Shown here piece by piece: positions 7,443 to 22,369 of a stretch of 22,369 bases of DNA. Each line of letters starts with the position of its first letter. The stretch's first letter is position 1. The position numbers and the translations under genes are program-made. Origin of the DNA: a virus; IMG/VR virus record IMGVR_UViG_3300007363_001465, positions 1 to 22,369 of that record, one strand, 5' to 3'. The notes beneath the pieces were generated by a model. That model was not told the origin of the DNA. It was given only the letters and a program-made list of their open reading frames with translations, and searched no databases.

Positions 7443-9400
7443 TACTCAGTCCTTCTAACTCTAATCTGCATTAAGTAACTAAGGATTTCAACAGGAGTGT
7501 CAACACCATTTCGTTCAAATCTAATCTGGTGCCAGTAAGCCTCGGTGCCAACTAAAGTTTCTGGAACTGATACTACCTGTGAGCCCCAGGTTGTACCATC
7601 ACCAAACTGAGTACCGTCACCGTACTCTGCTCCAGAAGCCTGAGCATCTACCTGGTAACTTATAGAGTTAGTGTTGCGTTGGTCAATATCTATGTAAACA
7701 TTAAGTGAGTAGGGTTGGGTCTGTAGGCGTAGGGAAAGTATTAACCTTCTAAGGAATATCTTGCGCAAACCATCGCCGTAATACTTAGTCCAGTAAATGA
7801 AGTCTATTGGTTTACCCATATCTGAATAAGCCTGTTCTGCTCTAAATACTGCACCCATTACCGAGCTACCCTCTATTAAGTTGTTTTCTTCATCTACAAA
7901 GGGTTTATCTATATAAGTATCGGTATCTCTCAGCCAGAAGTTATTTAGTGTGTCCCAGAGAATACAGGCATCATTAACTACCGAAGTGGTGCGTGGGTAG
8001 TAAAGGCGGTAGTAGTTACCCTGAACTACGGCAGCACACTTAGTTTTATCTTCTATATTATCGGTCTCGGTCTGGACTGAATCAGACATTAGTTCGTCTT
8101 GTGAACCATTAAATCTGTAGACTCCATCATCTGATAAGAAGTAGATGTAGTTCGGGTCACTCTTGATAACAGCGTTATTAACAGCACCCTTTTTACCAGA
8201 GGCTTGTCGTAGCACGAAATTACCTGGGTCATCACCAAACAGGATGTACTTAGTGTTACGGGTAAAGATAACCAGGTTGTCTTGGAAGACCGTCATACCA
8301 GTGATTGGGTCGCCAGTCTTAGATTGAGGTACATACACGAAGCCAGTAGAGCTCCAAGTTTCGTAATCAGCAAAGTCTGACCAAGTTAGTTTAGTCGGGT
8401 CGCTCTGCCCCGCTAGAAATAGTCTACCTTTATGAAAAGCCAAATACTTAGCAATCGGTGGTGAGCCAGCTACTGTTGTGACTGTAGCCCCATCCCACTT
8501 ATAGAGAGCATCATAGCCATTACACCAATAAAGATTATCGCTTGCCTGAGCAAAGTTGTACTCGGTAGCTGAAGCATTGAGAGCAGATTTAATGGAAGTG
8601 GTTGTGCCGTCAACTTCAGAAACACTGTAGACATTAGTACCGTGAGCGATAACTGTTTTAGCCGTAGCATTTGATGGTGTGTAGCGTGTACCGCCCAAGA
8701 GTGGACTGTTAGTAGAAACATAGGTTTTCCAGTTTAATCCATAGCTAGTAGCAGACCATGAACCACCTGAGTTGCTGGAAGTTTTGGCAGTAGTCACTGA
8801 GGTGTTAGAAGACCACAACCAGCTACCAGAGCCACCATTTTGCATATAAGCGACAACCCAGTAATCAGTAGCAGCAGATACTTCAGGAGCTTCAATAAAT
8901 CTAGCGGTTAGGTAGGTGTAGCTGGATGTTATGCTACTGGATAAAATACTGGAAGTTGCTAGTAGTGAACCTGGCGAACCGCCACTGTTAGTATAGATAG
9001 CCACCATAACGTGTTGGGTGGGAGTAGTACCAGTTTTTAGGTTTAGAGATACTTTAGTTAATCGGCCAGCAGTATTGTTAGTAAACTTATCAGCCACCCA
9101 GCTAGTTGTAGTAAGTGTAGCATCGGATGCGCCAGTAGTTGAGGTAACCTGAGCGTCTAGAGTTTCTCCCAGTGGAACAGAATAGAAGCCTGGCCCTTTT
9201 CTAGTAGCCACAGCTACACGTCGGTCATCAGACTTTCTAGCGTATAGTCGGACATTATAAAAAGAAGGGCTTTCGCCATCTTTAAGCTGAGTATATGGGA
9301 AAGTGGTGTTGAGCCCAGCAAAAGGTGAACCACTACCACCAACTGATATTTCTTTAACCCTACGTCCCGTGAACTGTTGGGGTCCTCTGCGTAGTTTCAC
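7442..9400 (-). CDS. Tail hub/nozzle-like protein with propeller-like region and inserted beta-sandwich
   Basis: A 652-residue protein with a GTG start, GAGG site 7 bases upstream and a 1-base overlap with the adaptor stop. The N-terminus (GLNTTFPYTQLKDGESPSFY) and a series of short blade-like repeats between about 240 and 470 (NVYSVSEVDG, NLYWCNGYDALYKWDG, KGRLFLAG, NLVIFTRNTKYILFGDD, YIYFLSDDGVYRFNG) resemble tail-tube or stabilisation proteins that follow adaptors in podoviruses. Residues about 80-235 look like a separate inserted domain with LTKVSLNLKT, MVAIYTNSGGSPGSLLATS and TDYWVVAYMQ, a pattern known from surface-anchored beta sandwiches. The C-terminus is beta-rich. It probably extends the tail tube beneath the adaptor and may contribute to surface binding. 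Confidence 0.65.
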   Translation of the reverse strand: MKLRRGPQQFTGRRVKEISVGGSGSPFAGLNTTFPYTQLKDGESPSFYNVRLYARKSDDRRVAVATRKGPGFYSVPLGETLDAQVTSTTGASDATLTTTSWVADKFTNNTAGRLTKVSLNLKTGTTPTQHVMVAIYTNSGGSPGSLLATSSILSSSITSSYTYLTARFIEAPEVSAATDYWVVAYMQNGGSGSWLWSSNTSVTTAKTSSNSGGSWSATSYGLNWKTYVSTNSPLLGGTRYTPSNATAKTVIAHGTNVYSVSEVDGTTTSIKSALNASATEYNFAQASDNLYWCNGYDALYKWDGATVTTVAGSPPIAKYLAFHKGRLFLAGQSDPTKLTWSDFADYETWSSTGFVYVPQSKTGDPITGMTVFQDNLVIFTRNTKYILFGDDPGNFVLRQASGKKGAVNNAVIKSDPNYIYFLSDDGVYRFNGSQDELMSDSVQTETDNIEDKTKCAAVVQGNYYRLYYPRTTSVVNDACILWDTLNNFWLRDTDTYIDKPFVDEENNLIEGSSVMGAVFRAEQAYSDMGKPIDFIYWTKYYGDGLRKIFLRRLILSLRLQTQPYSLNVYIDIDQRNTNSISYQVDAQASGAEYGDGTQFGDGTTWGSQVVSVPETLVGTEAYWHQIRFERNGVDTPVEILSYLMQIRVRRTE

Positions 9401-10050
9401 TAGAAACCTCCGATTCGTCGCCTTGCGCCTGGAACTATAACCTGATTATCTACCTGCCTCATACCATATCGAGTAATAAAAGATTCTAATAAATCAGCAT
9501 AACGATTAGTAAATTGTCCAGCGTAATCAAAGTCTTCTTTTTGCTCGTAGATTCTCATTTTAGCTCCAAGCATCAGTAATTCTTTAAAAGATTCAGGCAC
9601 AACTGGTACATCAGCGTCGGCAGTTAGAATTGGCACAGACTTAATGTAATCAATTGATAGGGTGTAATCTTCAGCGGCCAGAGTAGAGAAGATAATACTG
9701 GTGTAGTATGTCCAGTCTTGGAGTGGGCCAGTTGTATAGACCGATGGGTATAAGGTGCGGAAGTTCTTGGGTGATAAGTAGAAGTCGGTCAGGTCACAGG
9801 CTTGAGCGGCAGGAGAACTAATGTACAAAGAATAAACCCTCTGAAAATCACTCGGTAAAGCAGAAGTTAAACTGTTAGCTCCAGCCGCTACAGTGTTTGA
9901 TTGGGTACCAGAGTTGAGGGTTAAATCAAAGTTGTTAAATATAGCTTGTTGAGCATCATTAATAGCATCACCAGCCAGGGTACTATCTAGGTTAGAGTCC
10001 CCAACTTGGGACTGTAGCTTTGTCTTTAAATCTGAAAATTGGTAGCTCAA
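9400..10050 (-). CDS. Head-to-tail adaptor (connector) protein
   Basis: A 216-residue, mostly helical protein. Its pattern matches adaptor proteins that dock under the portal: an N-terminal helix (LKTKLQSQVGDSNLDSTLAG), helix DAINDAQQAIFNNFDL, a beta-strand region with DFYLSPKNFRTLYPS, and long C-terminal helices (VVPESFKELLMLGAKMRIYE, then FTNRYADLLESFITRYGM). The start is TTG with an AGGA site 7 bases upstream, since no ATG is available in frame nearby. It lies directly before the tail-hub gene, the usual podovirus order. It follows a short intergenic gap holding an extended -10 promoter candidate. Other head-completion proteins have a similar helical layout, so the exact subfamily is open. 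Confidence 0.68.
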   Translation of the reverse strand: MSYQFSDLKTKLQSQVGDSNLDSTLAGDAINDAQQAIFNNFDLTLNSGTQSNTVAAGANSLTSALPSDFQRVYSLYISSPAAQACDLTDFYLSPKNFRTLYPSVYTTGPLQDWTYYTSIIFSTLAAEDYTLSIDYIKSVPILTADADVPVVPESFKELLMLGAKMRIYEQKEDFDYAGQFTNRYADLLESFITRYGMRQVDNQVIVPGARRRIGGF

Positions 10051-13679: not shown

Positions 13680-14366
13680 TCATTTAATGAGCCCGTTTGC
13701 ACATTTTATAACACCAGCGTCAGTATTGTCATGGTAGTGCTGAAGATTCCTGGCCATACCTCCGTGGATTGTTTCGCTTCTGGGATGGTACTGGTGTAGT
13801 CCTTTTATCTCGTCTACAACTTCAAATGGCAGACCAGCCCTAACCCATCTATCGCCAAAGTCATTGTCCTCATAAGCGTAGCCCTTCATAAATTCTTCAT
13901 CCCAACCATTTATCTTCTCAATGTCCGATTTTTTAAACATCGCTAGAAAGTACATGGCGGGAGTCTCGGCCCTAAATATCTTACATACTAGAGTCGTGTG
14001 TTCGCCCCCAGGTTCTACTTCATCAAATACCTGGCAGACAATGTTCTTGCCTATAAAACCTTCGAGCTGGCCCAGTACATCGGTCAATGGCTTAACTTCG
14101 GGACTTGTAATGATAATGTTGTCGTACTTAGCTTTCTTTACTCCAAGATTAAAGGCTCGACTAGGATTGAAGCCTTCTTTTACTTTATAGGGGAATAGCC
14201 GAACATCTTTCATTAGCTTGTGGTTGTCTAGGTAACGCCCCACCTGGAACTCTTCTCTAGTAAAAATAATAAACTCCTTGGTCTGAGGCATCCTGTCATA
14301 GAGCCGTTTAGTAACTGTAAATTGTTCTAGTCGGTTGCTATCCATGGGGAATACAAATGAAAACAT
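13680..14366 (-). CDS. Glycosyltransferase, GT-A fold (galactosyltransferase-like C-terminal motif)
   Basis: A 228-residue soluble protein. The strongest signature is the acceptor/nucleotide-sugar region at about 138-176: MYFLAMFKKSDIEKINGWDE then GYAYEDNDFGDRW. The GWDE and ED-D motifs (W155, D156, E167, D168, D170) are typical of GT-A enzymes of the GT2/GT7 type. A usual DxD is not obvious; the matching position reads ITSPEV, so metal binding may differ. NPSRAFNLGVKKAK (about 67-80) matches the helix following the nucleotide-sugar site in family 2. It overlaps the methyltransferase stop by one base (GGAG site six bases upstream) and is the last gene of the glycan cassette. The donor and acceptor are unknown. 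Confidence 0.75.
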   Translation of the reverse strand: MFSFVFPMDSNRLEQFTVTKRLYDRMPQTKEFIIFTREEFQVGRYLDNHKLMKDVRLFPYKVKEGFNPSRAFNLGVKKAKYDNIIITSPEVKPLTDVLGQLEGFIGKNIVCQVFDEVEPGGEHTTLVCKIFRAETPAMYFLAMFKKSDIEKINGWDEEFMKGYAYEDNDFGDRWVRAGLPFEVVDEIKGLHQYHPRSETIHGGMARNLQHYHDNTDAGVIKCANGLIK

Positions 14367-14905
14367 TACTTACTCCATTCCGCCATAATGGCGTAATATG
14401 GTTCACCGTGTTGTGAGGTATCGCCAGCTTTAATTAAAATCTTGAAACCTAGGTCTTGTAATTCGTCGGAGGTCCAGCCGCTAAGATGCAGTTGGAAATG
14501 GTCGGCACCTTCGATGCCCCAGGCGTTGTGCGGTTCGTTCTTAAGATAACCGTCCTCACCTGGGCCTTGAGGCGTAAACAGTAGTATCTTCTCCCTAGCT
14601 ACACGTTTCATCTCTTTAATTAACTTTACACCCGTCTTTTTATCCATGTGTTCTATACCATCAATAATTGATATAACATCTACAGAGTTGTCGGGTTGTT
14701 TCTTGGTATATTCTAAAGCATCACTAACAACTGTCTTAACGCCACTAATTCGCTTTTCTAGAGCTTCAAGGTACTGTGGAGCTAAGTCAACCGCTGTAAC
14801 ATCCTGAGTATCTAGATTGTTCAGTTCTAGACCAATGCCAGCACACAGCGATAATAAACTCTTACCCCCTTTTACAGCTTCTTGCACATAAATGTATGGA
14901 TTCAT
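14366..14905 (-). CDS. SAM-dependent methyltransferase (class I, Methyltransf_11-like)
   Basis: A 179-residue protein with a Rossmann-type SAM site: motif I LLSLCAGIGLELNN (about 17-30), acidic residue D40 in VTAVDLAPQYLEALEK that would hold the ribose hydroxyls, a DALEY segment and motif IV-like SVDVISIIDGIEHM (about 74-87). A strong GGAGGAGGTC site precedes the ATG. It lies between the CapF-type cupin and a glycosyltransferase, so a sugar or glycan O-methyltransferase is the simplest reading. Methylated terminal sugars are a common cap on phage and bacterial glycans. The substrate cannot be read from the sequence, and protein or small-molecule methylation is not excluded. Confidence 0.75.
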   Translation of the reverse strand: MNPYIYVQEAVKGGKSLLSLCAGIGLELNNLDTQDVTAVDLAPQYLEALEKRISGVKTVVSDALEYTKKQPDNSVDVISIIDGIEHMDKKTGVKLIKEMKRVAREKILLFTPQGPGEDGYLKNEPHNAWGIEGADHFQLHLSGWTSDELQDLGFKILIKAGDTSQHGEPYYAIMAEWSK

Positions 14906-15274
14906 TTAGACCTCCTCCCTAAAGGTGTCTGGTTTTTTATAATCAAATAAGGTATCTACCCAAACAATAAATATACAGCCATCACTACCTGATGTAATAG
15001 AGTGGGTATGATTGGGTGGTACGGAAACTACCATTGGATTATCACCACCAAGTTCTACTCTAACTACTCCCTTATCTTTGCGGTCTCTAACTTTCATCAA
15101 AGCCGAGCCATAGACTACTAGAAAGTGCTCAGTTTTAATCTTGTGATAATGATTACCTCTGGTCTGATTAGGTGGAGCTACGACATAGAATAGCTGGCCA
15201 TCGGTGGGAAACTTAAAGGCTTCTACAAGCGTACCCCTATCGTCAGAGAAGGTTTCTAGTTTTTTGTAGTCCAT
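14906..15274 (-). CDS. Stand-alone CapF/WbjC-type cupin (UDP-hexulose C3-epimerase-like)
   Basis: A 122-residue protein matching only the C-terminal cupin of CapF (WbjC), whose usual length is about 370 residues because of an N-terminal SDR reductase. The match is motif by motif: DDRGTLVEAFKFPTDGQLFY, PPNQTRGNHYHKIKTEHFLV, VPPNHTHSI, and the ending VDTLFDYKKPDTF. Metal ligands appear as H42, H44, E49 and H91. In the UDP-L-FucNAc route the CapF cupin inverts C3 of the 4-keto sugar made by CapE before the SDR half reduces C4. No reductase half is encoded here. It has a strong AAGGAG site and overlaps the CapE-type gene by 19 bases. A dTDP-hexose 3,4-isomerase (FdtA-like) is less likely because the GNHxH motif is CapF-like. 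Confidence 0.75.
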   Translation of the reverse strand: MDYKKLETFSDDRGTLVEAFKFPTDGQLFYVVAPPNQTRGNHYHKIKTEHFLVVYGSALMKVRDRKDKGVVRVELGGDNPMVVSVPPNHTHSITSGSDGCIFIVWVDTLFDYKKPDTFREEV

Positions 15275-16173
15275 AGCAACTCCTTGATTTGTTCAATGTT
15301 TAACTGTTTGGTGTTGGCTGAGGTGTAGGCGGCTTTCGGAGTGGTCGTCTGACCTTCTACGAAATACTGGTCATAATTCATATCTCTAGAGTCGGCCTTT
15401 ACTCTATAGTAATCACCCATATCTTCGGCTCGGTACATCTCTTCCTCGGATATAAGAGATTCGTGCATTTTCTCACCATGACGGATGCCTATAATCTGGT
15501 GGTGGTCGCTGATAGCAGTTGCTAGGTCTAGCATAGTACAGGCGGGTGCTTTCTTTACAAAAGTATCTCCAGGCTGGCCATTCTCTAAGGCAAACATAAC
15601 GAGGTTAATAGAGTCTTGGAGTGATAATAAGAATCTAGTCATGTTGGGGCTGGTTATGGTTAGCGGCTCGCCCTTCTCAGCAGCAGCTTCCCAAATAGGA
15701 ATAATTGAACCCCTGGAGCGCATAACGTTACCATAGCGAGTTACTACTGCACCCTTAGATACAGCTAAACGTTCCATCATAGCCTTAGAAATACCCATAG
15801 CGTTTATGGGATAAACTGCCTTATCGGTTGATAAACATACTACCTTAGCACCAGCTCTCTGCCCTGCGTCTATAACGTGTTCTGCGCCAAGTATGTTGGT
15901 CTTGACGGCTTCAAAGGGGAAGAACTCGCAACTAGGTACTTGTTTTAGGGCAGCAGCGTGAAAGACATAATCGTGGCCGTTAATAACTTCTCCAACCCTA
16001 GCCCTGTCTCTAATATCGCCTATCTCATATCTGGCGTTAGGATAGAGCTTTCTCATCTCAAATTGTTTATTTTCGTCTCTACTAAAGACAGTTAAGTCGT
16101 GGCTGGTGTAGTATCTCTTTACAAAGGCATTACCAAAACTACCCGTACCCCCAGTTATAACTATTTTCGCCAT
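15256..16173 (-). CDS. capE: UDP-GlcNAc 4,6-dehydratase/5-epimerase (CapE/FnlA/WbjB-like)
   Basis: A 305-residue extended SDR enzyme. It has the NAD(P)-binding loop GGTGSFGNAF (8-17), acidic VFSRDENKQFEMR (29-41) and GDIRDRARV. The catalytic block is LSTDKAVYPINAMGISKAMM, in which the usual Tyr of YxxxK is Met126 with Lys130, the Met-x3-Lys signature of this family, and D117/K118 serve dehydration. IRHGEKMHESL near 230-240 is another family hallmark. CapE turns UDP-GlcNAc into UDP-2-acetamido-2,6-dideoxy-L-arabino-4-hexulose, the first step to UDP-L-FucNAc or UDP-L-QuiNAc. It overlaps capG by 13 bases and the cupin gene by 19, so the three are translationally linked. PseB-type dehydratases are the main alternative; the neighbours favour CapE. 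Confidence 0.85.
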   Translation of the reverse strand: MAKIVITGGTGSFGNAFVKRYYTSHDLTVFSRDENKQFEMRKLYPNARYEIGDIRDRARVGEVINGHDYVFHAAALKQVPSCEFFPFEAVKTNILGAEHVIDAGQRAGAKVVCLSTDKAVYPINAMGISKAMMERLAVSKGAVVTRYGNVMRSRGSIIPIWEAAAEKGEPLTITSPNMTRFLLSLQDSINLVMFALENGQPGDTFVKKAPACTMLDLATAISDHHQIIGIRHGEKMHESLISEEEMYRAEDMGDYYRVKADSRDMNYDQYFVEGQTTTPKAAYTSANTKQLNIEQIKELLWTTKN

Positions 16174-17258
16174 ACCACTCGATTCACGTAGCCTGTATAG
16201 CCAAGTATTACTTTAAGCACTCGTTCAGAACAGTTCTCAATAAAGTAGTCTCCAGGAGCCATCACTGGTTCCTTTACGGCATCTAGACAGAGTAGTATGT
16301 TTTCCTTGTCTACCCCGGTCATCAAAATAGAGCCGTGGTCGATAGCTTCAGGTCGTTCTATAGCATTTCTGATGGTAATAGCGGGGAAGCCTAAGATAGC
16401 TGACTCCTCGGCAATCGTGCCACTGTCACTAAGCACACAGCGAGCATAAGTCTGTAGGTTTAGGTAGTCGAAGAATCCAAAGGGTTTCATTACCCTAACT
16501 CTATTATTAAAGATTATCTTCTTATCGCTTATTTTCTTTTGGAGCCTTGGATGTGTGGACAGGATGATGTCTGATTCGTATTTCTCGGCGATTGTATTGA
16601 GCGTATCTACTAAAATATCCAGGTTCTTTTGTATCTCAGTGCTTTCATCTCGGTGGATGTTTACTAGAAAGTAAGGAACACTGCGTAAATTTAAGCGGTC
16701 CAATATGTCGGTATTGTCTAAGTGGCTGTTGGCGTTAGCAATCACTTCTGCCATTGGGCTACCCATTAAAAAGATTCTGTCCTTTGCTACACCCTCTTGA
16801 ATTAAGTAATGTCGTTGGGCGTCGGTGTAAACCATGTTGACATCAGAGATATGGTCTAGAATACGACGATTAATTTCTTCGGGAACATTATCATCGAAAC
16901 AACGATTGCCAGCCTCTAGGTGGAATAGTGGTATTTTCATTCGTTTAACTATGATTCCAGCCAAAGCTGAGTTAGTATCACCGAGTATTACTACGGCATC
17001 GGGCTTTTCTGATTTTAGTAGTTTCTCTACACCCACCATTACATGTCCAACTGTTTCTGCTAAACTACCACCTTTCCAGTTCAGAAAGTGGTCTGGTTTG
17101 CGTAGCTCTAGGTCTTTGTAGAATATCTCGTTTAACTCGTAGTCATAATTTTGGCCTGTGTGTACAAAGATATGATTAACGTGTTTATCTAAAGTTTTAA
17201 CTATCTCGGACATTTTAATTAGTTCGGGCCTGGTGCCGACTATGCTCATAACTTTCAT
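16161..17258 (-). CDS. capG: UDP-N-acetylglucosamine 2-epimerase family (CapG/FnlC/WecB-like)
   Basis: A 365-residue protein of normal family length (about 370) with all landmarks: GTRPELIKMS (8-17), HTGQNYDYELN (33-43), GDTNS (93-97), HLEAGNRCFDDNVPEEINRR (113-132), NIHRDES (200-206) and SDSGTIAEES followed by RNAIERPEA near the C-terminus. The fold is GT-B and the active site lies between two Rossmann domains. Wording such as NYDYELNEIFYKDLELRKPD and AGNRCFDDNVPEEINR fits CapG, which does the last C2 inversion giving UDP-L-FucNAc, better than the ManNAc-forming WecB. Its pairing with capE and a CapF cupin supports that. GAGG lies five bases before the ATG, and it overlaps its neighbours on both sides. 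Confidence 0.85.
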   Translation of the reverse strand: MKVMSIVGTRPELIKMSEIVKTLDKHVNHIFVHTGQNYDYELNEIFYKDLELRKPDHFLNWKGGSLAETVGHVMVGVEKLLKSEKPDAVVILGDTNSALAGIIVKRMKIPLFHLEAGNRCFDDNVPEEINRRILDHISDVNMVYTDAQRHYLIQEGVAKDRIFLMGSPMAEVIANANSHLDNTDILDRLNLRSVPYFLVNIHRDESTEIQKNLDILVDTLNTIAEKYESDIILSTHPRLQKKISDKKIIFNNRVRVMKPFGFFDYLNLQTYARCVLSDSGTIAEESAILGFPAITIRNAIERPEAIDHGSILMTGVDKENILLCLDAVKEPVMAPGDYFIENCSERVLKVILGYTGYVNRVVWRK

Positions 17259-17503
17259 ACTGCCTCGTAGATTTCCTTGAATGATACTTGATTACAGGGG
17301 TAAACTTCGTTGCGTTGAGTTTTAATAATATAATCTCCCTCTTGCGCAGACATATAGCCATTGAGGCTCATTAGTCTTATGGTGCCATCTACAGTGGTAA
17401 TCGCCACCTTATCAGCCTCTTCTACGAAAGCGCTAACCTCTGAGTAATTATTGCCCGTCCATTGGATAGCCTCTATGGTTACGGGTTTTTTTTGATACTT
17501 CAT
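17255..17503 (-). CDS. Small phage protein of the EAIQW/GDYIIK type
   Basis: An 82-residue protein with the pattern shared by many short phage proteins of unknown function: YQKKPVTIEAIQWTGNN at the start, a strand/turn core (IRLMSLNGYMSAQEGDYIIK) and RNEVYPCNQVSFKEIYEAV at the end. It is soluble with no membrane segment. A very strong AAGGGGGG site precedes its ATG, so it is probably well expressed. It sits between a glycosyltransferase and capG, overlapping each by 4 bases, although elsewhere this family appears in unrelated phage contexts. No function is known to me; a link to sugar metabolism is only positional. Confidence 0.7.
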   Translation of the reverse strand: MKYQKKPVTIEAIQWTGNNYSEVSAFVEEADKVAITTVDGTIRLMSLNGYMSAQEGDYIIKTQRNEVYPCNQVSFKEIYEAV

Positions 17504-18213
17504 TTGACCCCCCTTATTTTTAAAACGTTCTCATCATAACCACGGTCATAAAAAGTCTTCTCATAATATTCAGGGTAGTCTTTCCAGTTACTTTCGTCAG
17601 CAAATGTCCAGCTTAATCGTTCATCCATGTGGCCAACTAGCCAGCCCTCTTTAAGTACCTGGCGAGATAATTTAGAATCTTCTTGAAGTTTGGAGCGACT
17701 ACCTTCCCACGGTGTTTCGTCATATCTGAGGCCACCATCCCATATTGTGCGACGTAGGATATTTGGCCCACCAACGCACCCAGGCCACTCTATCAAGCCC
17801 ATGCCATTATAAAATTGGGGTACTTTATTCTCACCACCATCAAAATCTAAACCGAGTTGACCCAGTCGGTCTATGTTTTGGAAGTATTCTTGAGCTCGCA
17901 AATCCCAGCCTCGCTCAAAGTGCATATCATTGTCTAGTCGCATTAAATGCGTAGCTTGAGGATAGAACTCTAGAGCACGTTGCCAACCCAAATTACAGGC
18001 TTTACCTGGATAAAGATTTGTAGTGCTGGGTATGAAATCGTTTAATCTTCCCCGTTCTAGTAGACTACTCAGGTATTCTTGAGTTCCATCAGTAGAGGCA
18101 TTGTCTACAGCTACTAAGTAGTAGGGGACTTCTATAGTATCTAAAAGACTTCTAATAGTTTTTTTGGTGTAATCTAATCGGTTGTGGGTTACTAAACAAA
18201 TAGCTAGTTTCAT
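17500..18213 (-). CDS. Family 2 glycosyltransferase
   Basis: A 237-residue GT-A enzyme with classic family 2 features: N-terminal LAICLVTHNRLDYTKKTIRS (3-22), AVDNASTDGTQEYL (35-48) for UDP binding, NLGWQRALE (74-82), and the metal-binding D94-N-D96 in MRLDNDMHFE. The second half carries an acceptor region (GPNILRRTIWDGGLRYDETP), then a candidate base region (EDSKLSRQVLKEGW). No membrane segment is visible, so it acts in the cytoplasm on a soluble or protein acceptor or a membrane-attached lipid carrier. GGAG lies 9 bases upstream of the ATG, and the gene overlaps both neighbours by 4 bases. The donor could be the nucleotide sugar made downstream in the same operon; this is inference. Confidence 0.85.
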   Translation of the reverse strand: MKLAICLVTHNRLDYTKKTIRSLLDTIEVPYYLVAVDNASTDGTQEYLSSLLERGRLNDFIPSTTNLYPGKACNLGWQRALEFYPQATHLMRLDNDMHFERGWDLRAQEYFQNIDRLGQLGLDFDGGENKVPQFYNGMGLIEWPGCVGGPNILRRTIWDGGLRYDETPWEGSRSKLQEDSKLSRQVLKEGWLVGHMDERLSWTFADESNWKDYPEYYEKTFYDRGYDENVLKIRGVK

Positions 18214-19067
18214 ATCTCTACGTCTCCATCATCAATTATGGTATGTCGTTTTGGGGGGTAGGTAGCCAAGCCTTGAGCCACTAAGTTATCGGCGTGTTTT
18301 TTGCTAGTTGAAACTGCTCCCGTAGGAGTGTCTACCACCACCAATTTGCCCTTAGCTCCCGTAGCTAGAGGTTGTCTTTCTATAGCTTTTAAACGCATAT
18401 CTTTTTTAATCTTTGTCCATTTTTCTATCTTATGAGCGCCGTCATTAGAACCAGCTTTACCCCATGCCAGTAATTTACGTTGTCCTAACTTAACAGGTAA
18501 AGTTTTAATAATAACTCCTGTCTTCCAGAGTTTCATGCAAAAGGTAATGTCATGTAGTCCATAACCATCTAGTTTAGTGGCTTCACTGGCTACCAATTTA
18601 ATGGCACTACCATAGTTGAGCATTGTCCAACGCACCTTGTCTGTAAAGTACGGGGTCTTAATAGAATCAAAAACACTTCGCTTAACTAGCAAACAACCTG
18701 TACCACAGAACACTACCGAACCACCACGGTCAAAGAATACTGAACCACGGCCCTCTTTATTGGTGGGGTAATCACAGGTAACGGCGTTGGCGTTCTCTTG
18801 TATCATCTTTAACAGTAGGCCGTCGGGTAGAATCATATCGTCTTCTACAAACCATAGGTGGGTAATGGAATCATCTTTTAGGGCTCGTTGAGTTGGTTCT
18901 TCAAAACAGTTTGGAATTGGTTGGCCGTGTGAGAAGAAGAACTTGTGTGGAACCTGTTTAACGTTTTGGAGTATTTCGTCGGCTGTCTGCGAGAATATCA
19001 GCCCACGGGATGGTAGAATAACGGCTACTTTTATTGGTTTATTGGACGACTTCATATTTCCGCCCAT
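18210..19067 (-). CDS. GT-A glycosyltransferase-like protein, tandem paralogue B
   Basis: A 285-residue protein (an alternative ATG at 19055 gives 281 and has a slightly better upstream GGCGG). It aligns along its length with the next gene upstream: VAVILPSRGLIFSQT (14-28), CFEEPTQRAL (54-63), VEDDMILPDGLL (74-85, where E-D-D is a DxD-like metal site), CGTGCLLVKRSVF, GYGLHDITFCMKLWK, and GQRKLLAWGKAGSNDGAHKI. HDITF holds the likely acidic base. The C-terminal 70 residues (TGAKGKLVVVDTPTGAVSTS) are not shared with paralogue A. It overlaps paralogue A by 29 bases and the family 2 enzyme by 4. The substrate is unknown. Confidence 0.72.
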   Translation of the reverse strand: MGGNMKSSNKPIKVAVILPSRGLIFSQTADEILQNVKQVPHKFFFSHGQPIPNCFEEPTQRALKDDSITHLWFVEDDMILPDGLLLKMIQENANAVTCDYPTNKEGRGSVFFDRGGSVVFCGTGCLLVKRSVFDSIKTPYFTDKVRWTMLNYGSAIKLVASEATKLDGYGLHDITFCMKLWKTGVIIKTLPVKLGQRKLLAWGKAGSNDGAHKIEKWTKIKKDMRLKAIERQPLATGAKGKLVVVDTPTGAVSTSKKHADNLVAQGLATYPPKRHTIIDDGDVEI

Positions 19068-19881
19068 CGTTTAAATATGGTTGATTGTCTTCGTCATAAG
19101 AGATGAAAGGGGGGATGTCTTCCCAAAACTTAACTCGTTTGACTCGGTTCAGGGCACCTCGGAACATATTAGCGTTTTCGGGGTTAATCATGCCAGATAC
19201 TAGGTCTCTGCCAACCACTGTTAATTCTTCTATCCTGTGAGCTCCATTATTAGAGCGAGCATCACCCAGTTGTACTAATTTACGTTGTCCAGCCGTTTTA
19301 GCCATAGGTTTGACTGGTAGACTGGCTGAATAAAGAACTAGGCCAAAGTTTAAGTCGTGTAGTCCGTAGAATACCTTGTTTAGTTTGCGGGGCCAGAAGT
19401 GCAGAGTATCTTTATCAATAAATGGGTCAAAAGTTCTGTCGGTCCTCCAAATAGGCTTTTCTACCTGTTCTAATACCTGTCGAGCTACCAGTAGGAAACC
19501 AGTACCAGACCAGTAAGCCATCCCCTGTGGGTCGTGTAATACTGTAGCGTCACCATTCTGTTGAAACGGGTAGTCTAGGGCTACTACTGGATAACCCTCA
19601 GCAAACATGTCTTTCAAGATGCCTTTAGGGATAATCATGTCATCCTCGCAGAAAAGAATAGCGTAGACATCAGGGTCAGCTAAAGCACGCTCTGTGGGCT
19701 CATTAAAGCACTCTGGAAGGCTTTTAGCGTGCGCCCAGTATATTTCGTAATCAAAGTCAGAAAGCTCGTTAAGCAGCTCCTCTAGCGTTTGGCTGAACAT
19801 CAACCCTCTGGATGGTAAAACAACTGCTAACTTAGCTCTAGACTGACTCGGTAATTTCGCCCGTGATGTCTGGGTTTTCAT
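19039..19881 (-). CDS. GT-A glycosyltransferase-like protein, tandem paralogue A
   Basis: From the ATG at 19881 the product has 280 residues; a TTG at 19896 would add five. Neither has a clear Shine-Dalgarno. Shared blocks with paralogue B are LAVVLPSRGLMFSQT, CFNEPTERAL, CEDDMIIPKGIL (DxD-like metal site), WSGTGFLLVARQVL, FYGLHDLNFGLVLY and AGQRKLVQLGDARSNNGAHRI. This is a GT-A nucleotide-diphospho-sugar transferase pattern with a predicted cytoplasmic location. The start lies well inside the preceding 111-codon gene, an unusually long overlap of 44 bases that cannot be shortened without losing the first strand of the fold. Conserved active-site residues in both copies suggest both are functional, perhaps adding successive sugars. 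Confidence 0.72.
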   Translation of the reverse strand: MKTQTSRAKLPSQSRAKLAVVLPSRGLMFSQTLEELLNELSDFDYEIYWAHAKSLPECFNEPTERALADPDVYAILFCEDDMIIPKGILKDMFAEGYPVVALDYPFQQNGDATVLHDPQGMAYWSGTGFLLVARQVLEQVEKPIWRTDRTFDPFIDKDTLHFWPRKLNKVFYGLHDLNFGLVLYSASLPVKPMAKTAGQRKLVQLGDARSNNGAHRIEELTVVGRDLVSGMINPENANMFRGALNRVKRVKFWEDIPPFISYDEDNQPYLNDGRKYEVVQ

Positions 19882-20173
19882 CTCTGAGTTCTTCAATCAT
19901 TTTTTGTATCATCAAGATGCCACCAGTAAATTGCTGTACCTGGTTTTTGTGTTCCAACATATTGTTATTGCCCTTGGTCTGGAGTGCTTCAATAGGACTC
20001 TCTTGTAGTCTTTTAGCGTGAACTACATCTACCCTAGCTCTCCACGCCATACTCTTAAGTTCGTGGAGTTGATTCTCTAGGAAAGCTAGTTTTTGCCTAG
20101 GGTGAAGTTCAGCCTCTGGTGGGATGTTGAACTCTTTTACTGTGTCTTTATCTACTTGTAATGGACTTTTCAT
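19838..20173 (-). CDS. Hypothetical helical protein at the head of the glycan operon
   Basis: A 111-residue charged, mostly helical protein. Residues about 25-60 (HPRQKLAFLENQLHELKSMA) look like a short coiled coil, and about 70-105 (QFTGGILMIQKMIEELRDEN) a second helix, giving a possible helical hairpin. There is no signal peptide, membrane segment or enzymatic motif. It is the first gene after the terminator following the capsid gene and after the promoter candidate at 20198-20227, with an AAGGA site 8 bases before the ATG. Its last 44-59 bases are overlapped by the next gene. It could be a small virion or head-completion protein or a partner of the glycosyltransferases; nothing in the sequence decides. 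Confidence 0.6.
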   Translation of the reverse strand: MKSPLQVDKDTVKEFNIPPEAELHPRQKLAFLENQLHELKSMAWRARVDVVHAKRLQESPIEALQTKGNNNMLEHKNQVQQFTGGILMIQKMIEELRDENPDITGEITESV

Positions 20174-20430: not shown

Positions 20431-21300
20431 TTAGTGTTTTAGCACGAAGCCAAAACCTGAGCGAAGTGGCATTATGCCGTAGAGGACATCTACTGTTACA
20501 AGCCAGCCAAGGTGTTCTTGTTTGTACTGTGCTTGAGTTCGAGGTGTCAACTGCATAGCTACTGCAAATGCTTCCTTGTGGAAGAATAGAGAGCTATATT
20601 CGTCAGTTGCGGTGTCTAACCAGTATAAGTTCTGGCTCATGTAGACATCAGCGCCGTAGATGCGTCCGATTTTACCGTTTTTAATGCTGTTCTGGTCGCC
20701 ACCTACACCAAGTGCGTCGTAACGAACATACTTGTCGATAGCTAACATTTCAGCTTCACCTTTAGGGTGAACTACGATTGAACGGTCAGAGCGTGGTGCT
20801 TTGTTCTCGCTCAAGTATCGGTTTACGGTTAGGATTAGGTTGTCGTTTAGGGCTGTGCCGTAAGCGCCGTAACCAGTCCAAGCTGTGGTCATGTAACGAG
20901 CGATGTCGTTGTCAACTTTTTCAGCGATTGCGTAAGCAGCAGCTTGTGTGTAGTCGCTTCTTAAGTCGTATGCAGATTGGATTTTTACTAGGTCTTCTAC
21001 TAAGAATGAGCTTTCGTAGTGCTTGTTCAAAGTAATAGTAGTTTTGGTTTCTGTGTTGTAGTTCAAAGTAACTACAGTGTTTTGTGATTTTAGGTTTGCA
21101 GAAATGGTTGTAACGTTTGGAATTTCCAAAGTTTGGCCTGAGCTCTGCACGTCAGCGTCGTAGTGTTTGATGAGTGGAAGCAAAACTAGGTTGCTTTTTA
21201 CAAACATCAAAACTTCACGACTCCAGATGTTAGGTCGGAAAACGTTAGCAGCTGTTGCGCCAATGTTCACGTTTCCAGAGTTAAATGCTCCAGTTGTCAT
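20431..21300 (-). CDS. Major capsid protein (HK97-fold type)
   Basis: A 289-residue protein with the profile of small tailed-phage capsid proteins: an N-terminal segment FRPNIWSREVLMFVKSNLVL, a P-domain-like region with LVEDLVKIQSAYDLRSDYTQ and AAAYAIAEKVDNDIARYM (spine helix), SIVVHPKGEAEMLAIDKYV, GRIYGADVYMSQNL, and a C-terminal strand LVTVDVLYGIMPLRSGFGFV. These blocks are typical of podovirus-type coat proteins of the HK97 fold. It follows a scaffold-like gene by 22 bases, the usual order, with AAAGGA about 12 bases before the ATG. No cleaved N-terminal delta domain is apparent, consistent with the separate scaffold. It is bounded downstream by a UUCG hairpin and, one small gene later, by a terminator. 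Confidence 0.85.
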   Translation of the reverse strand: MTTGAFNSGNVNIGATAANVFRPNIWSREVLMFVKSNLVLLPLIKHYDADVQSSGQTLEIPNVTTISANLKSQNTVVTLNYNTETKTTITLNKHYESSFLVEDLVKIQSAYDLRSDYTQAAAYAIAEKVDNDIARYMTTAWTGYGAYGTALNDNLILTVNRYLSENKAPRSDRSIVVHPKGEAEMLAIDKYVRYDALGVGGDQNSIKNGKIGRIYGADVYMSQNLYWLDTATDEYSSLFFHKEAFAVAMQLTPRTQAQYKQEHLGWLVTVDVLYGIMPLRSGFGFVLKH

Positions 21301-21322: not shown

Positions 21323-22141
21323 TTATTTACCAGAGATTGCTTTGTTAATAGCTTCGTAGTTCTTTTCGTACCACTTTTGGTCATTCTTATCTACCAGTTC
21401 AAAGACGTTTTGAGGCGTAATGTTCTGGGATTCAAAGACTGCACTATTAGTAGCAGCAGCTTCTGGGGGTATTGCTTGTTGTTTCTGAGCGAGGTTTTGA
21501 AGAGCTTGCTTGCCACCTTCAGCCTTTAGTTTGTCTGTTCGGCTAGGGTCTGCTAAGAAATGAGCTTTGATGTCGTCCATGTCAGTTAGCCATGGTCGCT
21601 GTTGAGCAATTTCTTGTAGTTCGGTGCGGTGGTCCTTCATATCAGGATTAGCCTCGAACCAGTCTCTAACGTACATCCGTAGTTCAGTCTGATTTTGTCT
21701 TTCAACTACTTGGTCGATGTTTGGGTCGCCTGTAATTGGGATTTCTTCAGGTGGTGTAACTGCTGGCCGTTGGTTTGCTTGGTGCATTTTACGTTCAGCT
21801 TCGAGCTGCATACGAGCTAAGTTCACTTCATTCGGGTTATCGGGGTTAAGTTTAATCCCCTTCTTCTCCGACCAAGCGAGTATCTCGTCGTCAGTCTTGT
21901 CTGCTGCGTATTCAGCTTGTGTCTCTTTTGTTTCTGTTGAGTCTTTAGACTCTGTTTCGGAAACGGCTTCGTCTGCACTTTGGGTGGGTGCTTGCGATGA
22001 AAGAGGTTGTAGTGAAGGTGTACCGTTCTCGTCAGTTGATATGACTTGTTCGTTGCCTTCTATAGCCTCGTTCGAGCCCGCTTCGTCTATTTGTGGTTGT
22101 GCTGTAATAGCGCCACTGTCCGAAGTTGTGGTTTCGTCCAT
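21323..22141 (-). CDS. Capsid scaffolding protein
   Basis: A 272-residue, strongly acidic protein. The first 100 residues are low-complexity and disordered (Ser/Thr/Glu/Gln). Helical stretches follow (EVNLARMQLEAERKMHQANQ; ELRMYVRDWFEANPDMKDHR), and a charged C-terminal helix (DQKWYEKNYEAINKAISGK), the part that usually binds the coat protein. Composition, length and place directly before the capsid gene are those of tailed-phage scaffolds, which organise the procapsid and then leave. A strong TAGGAG site lies 6 bases upstream of the ATG. The upstream region contains interleaved inverted repeats that may control translation. No protease motif is visible, so it is probably not a fused protease-scaffold. 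Confidence 0.78.
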   Translation of the reverse strand: MDETTTSDSGAITAQPQIDEAGSNEAIEGNEQVISTDENGTPSLQPLSSQAPTQSADEAVSETESKDSTETKETQAEYAADKTDDEILAWSEKKGIKLNPDNPNEVNLARMQLEAERKMHQANQRPAVTPPEEIPITGDPNIDQVVERQNQTELRMYVRDWFEANPDMKDHRTELQEIAQQRPWLTDMDDIKAHFLADPSRTDKLKAEGGKQALQNLAQKQQAIPPEAAATNSAVFESQNITPQNVFELVDKNDQKWYEKNYEAINKAISGK

Positions 22142-22165
22142 CTTTTTCTCCTATTTTTTTAAGGT

Positions 22166-22222
22166 ACGCTCAGGGGTAGAGGAGCAAGGTAACTGAGCGT
22201 GTTTATTTTTGGGTCTTGCTCC
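22166..22222 (-). promoter_or_regulatory. Two interleaved inverted repeats (pseudoknot or alternative hairpins) before the scaffold gene
   Basis: In the minus-strand transcript the order is A (GGAGCAAG, 22222-22215), B (ACGCTCAG, 22200-22193), A' (CTTGCTCC, 22188-22181), B' (CTGAGCGT, 22173-22166). A pairs with A' and B with B', each 8 bp and perfect. The interleaving allows either a pseudoknot or two competing hairpins. A lies inside the end of the upstream gene, whose stop is at 22205-22203. B' ends 13 bases before the scaffold Shine-Dalgarno. No U-run follows. Confidence 0.5.
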
Positions 22223-22369
22223 CCTCGTCCTTGGGCGTAACTGCTCGGAACTGCAAATGTTCTATAGCCTTTATAACACCTCCCGCTTCTTTAAGCAAGC
22301 CAAAGGCAGCTTCCGCTGTCTCTTGCTGGCTGGCTTCATCTAAACACTTCTGTTTAGTGGCGTTAAGGT
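22203..22369 (-). CDS. C-terminal end of an unidentified phage gene (start beyond the right edge)
   Basis: The last 54 residues are visible, ending at a TAA at 22205-22203. They are charged and helical (ATKQKCLDEASQQETAEAAF, then LLKEAGGVIKAIEHLQ) and end in a flexible tail PKDEGSKTQK. Being just upstream of the scaffold and capsid genes, it could be the C-terminus of a portal protein or of a small protein between portal and scaffold. The visible part has no decisive motif. The frame is open to the window edge, and its 3' end carries one arm of the inverted-repeat structure. Confidence 0.6.
   Translation of the reverse strand, partial: LNATKQKCLDEASQQETAEAAFGLLKEAGGVIKAIEHLQFRAVTPKDEGSKTQK

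Follow-up and report, generated by a model that had tools for sequence, protein, structure and literature searches.

The stretch of DNA analysed here (the window) is a 22369-base viral record whose genes lie on the minus strand, which is therefore the mRNA strand. A small ORF with its stop codon at 22205-22203 is followed, 61 nt from its end at 22203, by a scaffold-like ORF of 272 aa (21323-22141) and then by the major capsid protein gene (20431-21300), which matched phrog_267 with an E value of 3.1e-42. The scaffold-like ORF had no PHROG or Pfam match, and the name 'scaffold' rests solely on its position ahead of the capsid gene. Its likely ribosome-binding site is AGGAG at 22148-22152. In a near-identical contig (L003, the same over the 140 nt compared), the small ORF is complete, 76 aa in length, and comes after a 622-aa ORF; the ORF at the position of the latter in the relative L212 encodes a portal protein (Pfam SU10_portal). 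The window also carries an SU10_adaptor match at 9400-10050 (E 3.1e-16), and the adaptor and portal matches together suggest a head-to-tail connector of the SU10/kuravirus type. A block of sugar genes occupies 14366-19896, with Pfam matches to UDP-GlcNAc 2-epimerase (PF02350), Polysacc_synt_2 (PF02719) and a methyltransferase, and ORFs beside this block resemble glycosyltransferases.

Immediately 5' of the scaffold-like ORF, the first gene downstream, two inverted repeats interleave on the mRNA strand in the order A-B-A'-B', the order of a pseudoknot. Perfect 8-bp stems are formed by 22166-22173 with 22193-22200 and by 22181-22188 with 22215-22222, and the second stem lengthens to 11 bp, including one G-U pair (22215-22225 with 22178-22188). 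Arm A (22215-22225) is made up of the last codons of the small ORF and pairs with A' (22178-22188). The stop codon lies between A and B (22193-22200), which begins 2 nt past the stop and pairs perfectly with B' (22166-22173) to create the pseudoknot. The two 8-bp pairings, and the placement of A within the upstream coding sequence and of B a few bases past its stop, had been the substance of the preliminary description, and both hold for the window. A third arm, Z (22229-22239), was absent from that description. It lies within the upstream coding sequence and pairs with B' and its tail, prolonging hairpin A, so that B' is a common strand for which Z and B compete. The minimum-energy fold of the window's mRNA strand pairs UACGC (22239-22235) with GCGUA (22169-22165), CA (22233-22232) with UG (22172-22171) and GG (22230-22229) with CC; this Z-containing fold has a z score of -2.57, with 1 of 200 shuffles equally good. 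The AGGAG motif is outside all of these helices.

Across the entire window, this was the only place where two perfect Watson-Crick stems of 8 bp stood in A-B-A'-B' order inside 70 nt, and any such pair was present in 6 of 200 dinucleotide-shuffled windows. The pseudoknot score of the 150-nt leader was equalled by none of 200 shuffles. Searches of Rfam 15 gave one chance match, below the gathering threshold, for the window stretch and no match in 13 relatives, and no intrinsic terminator (a GC-rich hairpin followed by a T run) was detected between 21900 and 22369. A literature search of open-licence papers found no description of the element.

Relatives were collected by capsid searches (67 and 80 loci, overlapping), by a scaffold search (64 loci) and by a search of a genome collection, which gave three loci, two of them in one Candidatus Saccharibacteria metagenome-assembled genome (MAG). 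The 99 loci with a usable start reduced to 78 distinct upstream regions, each 110 nt or longer. The element was assigned, by reading alignments, in 48 of the 78 distinct gaps ahead of the scaffold gene, where it takes three forms. In the compact form (G1; 15 regions, including the window) A lies in the upstream coding sequence, and in the extended form (G2; 30 regions) A and B lie mostly 3' of the stop codon; three regions have an intermediate form (G3), which L054 also fits. An automatic pseudoknot finder gave results matched by none of 60 shuffles in 31 of the 78 regions, and because it often chose non-homologous arms the member counts rest on the reading of alignments. The element is kept across capsids of 53-88% identity to that of the window. 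In cyanophage A-4L, a distant relative, the portal and scaffold genes overlap, and there is no gap for the element.

Two other arrangements were seen among the relatives. In a distant capsid clade of about 50-54% identity (L132, L133-L137, L138-L139 and L142), a hairpin upstream of the scaffold gene has a loop, GCACC(T), complementary to (A)GGTGC about 55 nt 3' of it, with a sigma-70-like promoter between the two; this predicted loop pairing is invariant. In L047, L052, L061, L143 and L145, what lies immediately ahead of the matched portion of the capsid gene is not a scaffold ORF. The ORF in L047 and L145 begins with an AYLAGLVDG- or DYVAGLIDG-like sequence, and we take it to mark a likely intron with a LAGLIDADG-type endonuclease; a search for group I introns in these five loci and in L041 gave no Rfam match.

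Comparison among related phages found the pairings both conserved and compensated. In the 30 extended relatives (alignment A3), changes on both sides were seen at 14 of 14 pairs of helix A, and 91.6% of cells were paired. Helices A and B together were 87.1% paired, in an alignment where B is off by one in the CCCTGCC rows, which lowers its share of the count; their covariation score was 0.647 against 0.216 in shuffled alignments (0 of 500 as high) and at most 0.190 when slid. RNAalifold, which cannot return pseudoknots, recovered a Z+A hairpin from the alignment alone, with 21 pairs, 17 of them changed on both sides. We then compared each arm with its own B' by permutation, using one representative for each of the 13 distinct inner B' words. 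With its register fixed, Z paired at 42 of the 52 inner positions, where permutation gave 31.6; B paired at 41 of 52, where permutation gave 29.2, with a mild bias from its register being picked for best pairing with its own B'. Neither value was reached in 20000 permutations. B' co-varies with both Z and B, so two mutually exclusive folds are conserved, and on this comparative evidence both helices look to be under selection. B pairs at 8 or 9 of nine positions in 26 of the 30 extended relatives and is weak in four (six positions in L110, L199 and L207, seven in L130), and the GGGC of B' is invariant in all 30.

The compact clade gave a similar result for helix A, with 128 pairs against 113.6 expected (0 of 20000 permutations), counted in an alignment where A' is still off by one in some rows. 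B is near-invariant in this clade (GCCCAG/CTGGGC) and its covariation was not significant (2608 of 20000); the window itself carries a compensated variant, GCTCAG/CTGAGC. A MAFFT alignment of the compact clade (A4) set B in the wrong register, and no counts were taken from it. The comparison thus supports a predicted long imperfect hairpin, in which Z-A pairs against A'-B', and an apical-loop arm B complementary to B', which would form a pseudoknot that excludes Z. Being conserved and compensated across relatives, the element does not appear to be a product of chance.

A covariance model of the 30 extended sequences (R1) was run on 49 sources, and located the right place in seven outside the training set (L128, L007, L025, L024, L040, L166 and L033; E 7e-7 to 0.26). 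With default filters it missed the window and ten other carriers (L010, L029, L030, L043, L044, L152, L168, L210, L211 and L212). When run unfiltered on 2369 bases of the window, which had no part in building it, R1 gave its best match at 22178-22225 on the minus strand (E 0.017), that is, at A and A'. L041 and L219, also outside the training set, scored 77.4 bits directly 5' of the scaffold-like start, and across 12 viral records matches were seen in seven, at one place each. A motif pattern found 15 stretches in viral contigs; seven of these, outside the family sets, were run with R1 and only L219 was positive, with E values of 0.29 or worse for L218, L221, L223, L225 and L228 and no match for L222. 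Scores on the opposite strand were far below those on the mRNA strand (for example, 27 versus 83 bits in L005), indicating that the mRNA strand is the folding strand. Across 379 genomes from the phylum of the probable host, R1 gave a single weak match (L213), which scored nearly equally on the other strand and was rejected as an ordinary hairpin.

The relatives that lack the element frequently have a promoter in the same gap. A sigma-70-like promoter (p at most 0.05) was found in 0 of 48 element gaps versus 15 of the 30 others (Fisher 3.6e-8, with L054 counted among the others), and in 1 of 49 versus 13 of 22 once L054 was moved and seven regions that do not adjoin the scaffold gene were removed (Fisher 1.0e-7); the rows behind all of these values are related rather than independent, and kinship is ignored. 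The promoter label requires five changes on the capsid tree against a shuffled mean of 10.2, so the exchange between element and promoter has seemingly happened more than once. The sisters L060 and L212 (100/99) have identical leaders between TGGGCGAGC and the start codon; the element is present in L212, and L060 has TTGTTT-18-TATAAT exactly in its place. Between L060 (1742-3168) and L212 (1705-4139) the scaffold genes are nearly identical, and the upstream ORF is lectin-like in L060 and the portal in L212. The scaffold-capsid module would thus appear to have moved and acquired a promoter. We do not propose an account in which a terminator is paired with a promoter, as neither the gap in the window nor three relatives of the promoter type had an intrinsic terminator fitting the tool's pattern. 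A search of 11 viral records and one MAG for a phage-type RNA polymerase was negative, a weak result given that control genomes gave no match either. By this comparison, the element and a sigma-70-like promoter alternate at one place in evolution. The frequent presence of a promoter at that spot in element-less relatives suggests that the element probably sets the amount of capsid protein.

Phages need many copies of capsid and scaffold proteins from operons that also encode the portal, of which a dozen copies are required. We propose that, in this uncultured phage group, the element is a conserved mRNA structure marking where the portal/small-ORF message gives way to the scaffold-capsid message, and it is quite likely that it acts at the RNA level on scaffold and capsid expression. 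Our preferred reading of its function, a tentative one to which we give a little less than even weight, is that it serves as an RNA-level boundary element that raises or stabilizes scaffold and capsid expression. The hairpin would be the resting fold. By a rough estimate with a pseudoknot penalty of 9.6 kcal/mol, it beats the pseudoknot in 28 of the 30 extended relatives, by a median of 10.6 kcal/mol, so the pseudoknot may be rare. Z could be removed by a ribosome at the upstream stop, by a nearby endonuclease cut or by a 5' exonuclease such as RNase J. The loss of Z costs a median of 21.0 kcal/mol in the extended relatives and B:B' is worth 20.8, again as rough estimates. With Z gone, B' would re-pair with B in a compact pseudoknot just 5' of the scaffold ribosome site, and the scaffold-capsid part of the polycistronic mRNA would gain a 5' boundary of its own, either protected or used efficiently. 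An RNA boundary of this kind may do the job of the internal promoter in related phages, allowing capsid and scaffold to be produced in many copies although their message also carries low-copy portal genes.

A more specific version of this proposal holds that once Z has been removed, whether by a nuclease or by a ribosome, a B:B' pseudoknot is locked in place and blocks 5'-to-3' decay, giving an exonuclease-resistant boundary that has been swapped with a promoter in evolution. We regard this version as unlikely. The host is probably a member of the Saccharibacteria, an assignment based on two phage contigs of the group (L210 and L212) within one MAG, MGR_bin358, which could be a binning error. 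RNase J was present in 57 of the 59 genomes from the phylum of this MAG, RNase Y in two of two MAGs and RNase III in two of two, in one case as a partial gene below the cut-off. The presence of these genes makes a block to 5' decay possible, though it does not thereby demonstrate one.

A translation-coupled switch is conceivable, if doubtful. A ribosome terminating on the upstream gene would cover Z (the stop plus about 12 nt) and free B' for B, so that scaffold initiation is tuned or handed over, and the hairpin would also bring the stop near the scaffold ribosome site. The conservation of both B' pairings agrees with this account, as does the placement of the upstream stop, which starts at -4 to +1 of the first base of Z in 26 of the 30 extended relatives. 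In those 26, the linear distance from stop to scaffold start is 89-121 nt, but Z's partner ends just 13-40 nt (median 18) before the start in the extended clade, with the ribosome site free. However, the stop position could follow in part from the sequence of Z itself. In the compact clade, including the window, both Z and A are coding and the loop holds the stop, so that the arms hidden by a ribosome at termination would be A and B. Which arms are masked would therefore differ between the clades, and the lack of a common masking logic weighs most heavily against an account based on translation coupling alone. The scaffold ribosome site is also free in both folds, and a simple opening and closing of it by upstream ribosomes is thus not indicated. 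The preliminary description had envisaged that a ribosome masking A, and possibly B, would change which fold forms, and that the outcome could be either coupling to upstream translation or mRNA processing. The two alternative folds have stood up, and the processing suggestion is still live, whereas the location of A within the upstream gene is confined to the compact clade.

The element could alternatively be an operator bound by an RNA-binding protein of the phage, for instance the scaffold protein, the capsid protein or a single-strand binding protein, that turns scaffold translation down or up. The invariant GGGC of B' in the extended relatives would suit a protein-binding site, and the layout of pseudoknot, ribosome site and A/U-rich unstructured stretch is that of the T4/RB69 gene 32 operator (PMC535899). 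Nevertheless, the arm sequences vary freely, the candidate protein is purely hypothetical and autoregulation does not predict mutual exclusion with a promoter, which makes an operator distinctly unlikely. Still less probable is an RNase III site, where cleavage of the imperfect Z-A hairpin, of roughly 24 bp, would separate the portal and capsid messages. The length and internal mismatches of the hairpin suit RNase III, and both MAGs carry the gene as noted above, but A alone is 11 bp in the window, and cleavage does not account for why the loop arm B has stayed complementary to B'. Finally, the inverted repeats might be fortuitous, or might form an operator or recombination site that works as DNA and has no function as RNA. 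The near-invariance of GGGC/GCCC, which a DNA operator would show, could be cited here, but these readings are very improbable given the compensating changes at every pair of A, the much lower score of the opposite strand (expected where G-U pairs form on the mRNA strand only), the fixed position at one gene boundary and the rarity of such a pair in whole-window shuffles.

The boundary element that we favour would be an RNA structure with a truly shared strand, standing where related phages often have a promoter. The L060/L212 pair offers a natural comparison for the interchangeability of RNA structure and promoter. If the assignment to Saccharibacteria is right, the element would also open a way into the gene control of phages of a group in which few members have been cultured.

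Several known systems share features with this element. T7-like phages have internal promoters before the scaffold and capsid genes for high output. The genomic place and the presumed need for high scaffold and capsid output are the same here, but the feature is an RNA element rather than a promoter. In the repZ gene of plasmid ColIb-P9 (IncI-alpha), a hairpin loop pairs with a strand 5' of the next ribosome site, in a manner tied to translation of an upstream ORF. The element likewise has competing pairings of a strand near the downstream gene (B' with Z or B). Unlike repZ, it has no known antisense RNA, it does not sequester the ribosome site and, in most relatives, its arms lie past the upstream stop. 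The gp32 protein of phage T4 regulates translation of its own mRNA. As in T4 and RB69 gene 32, our element is a pseudoknot upstream of the ribosome site; the gene 32 pseudoknot lies 5' of the ribosome site, which an A/U-rich unstructured stretch follows, and the 5' part of the T4 pseudoknot overlaps an upstream reading frame (PMC535899). It differs from T4 gene 32 in having scaffold-like and major capsid genes downstream instead of a single-strand binding protein gene, and in its longer stems, its competing arm Z and its lack of a known protein ligand. The function that we propose most resembles the selective RNA processing and stabilization of the cip-cel operon of Ruminiclostridium cellulolyticum, in which intergenic stem-loops set the stoichiometry of a complex via processing and stability (PMC10311766). 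Processing is hypothetical in the phage and, in contrast to the cip-cel stem-loops, the phage element would be a two-state structure that alternates between hairpin and pseudoknot.
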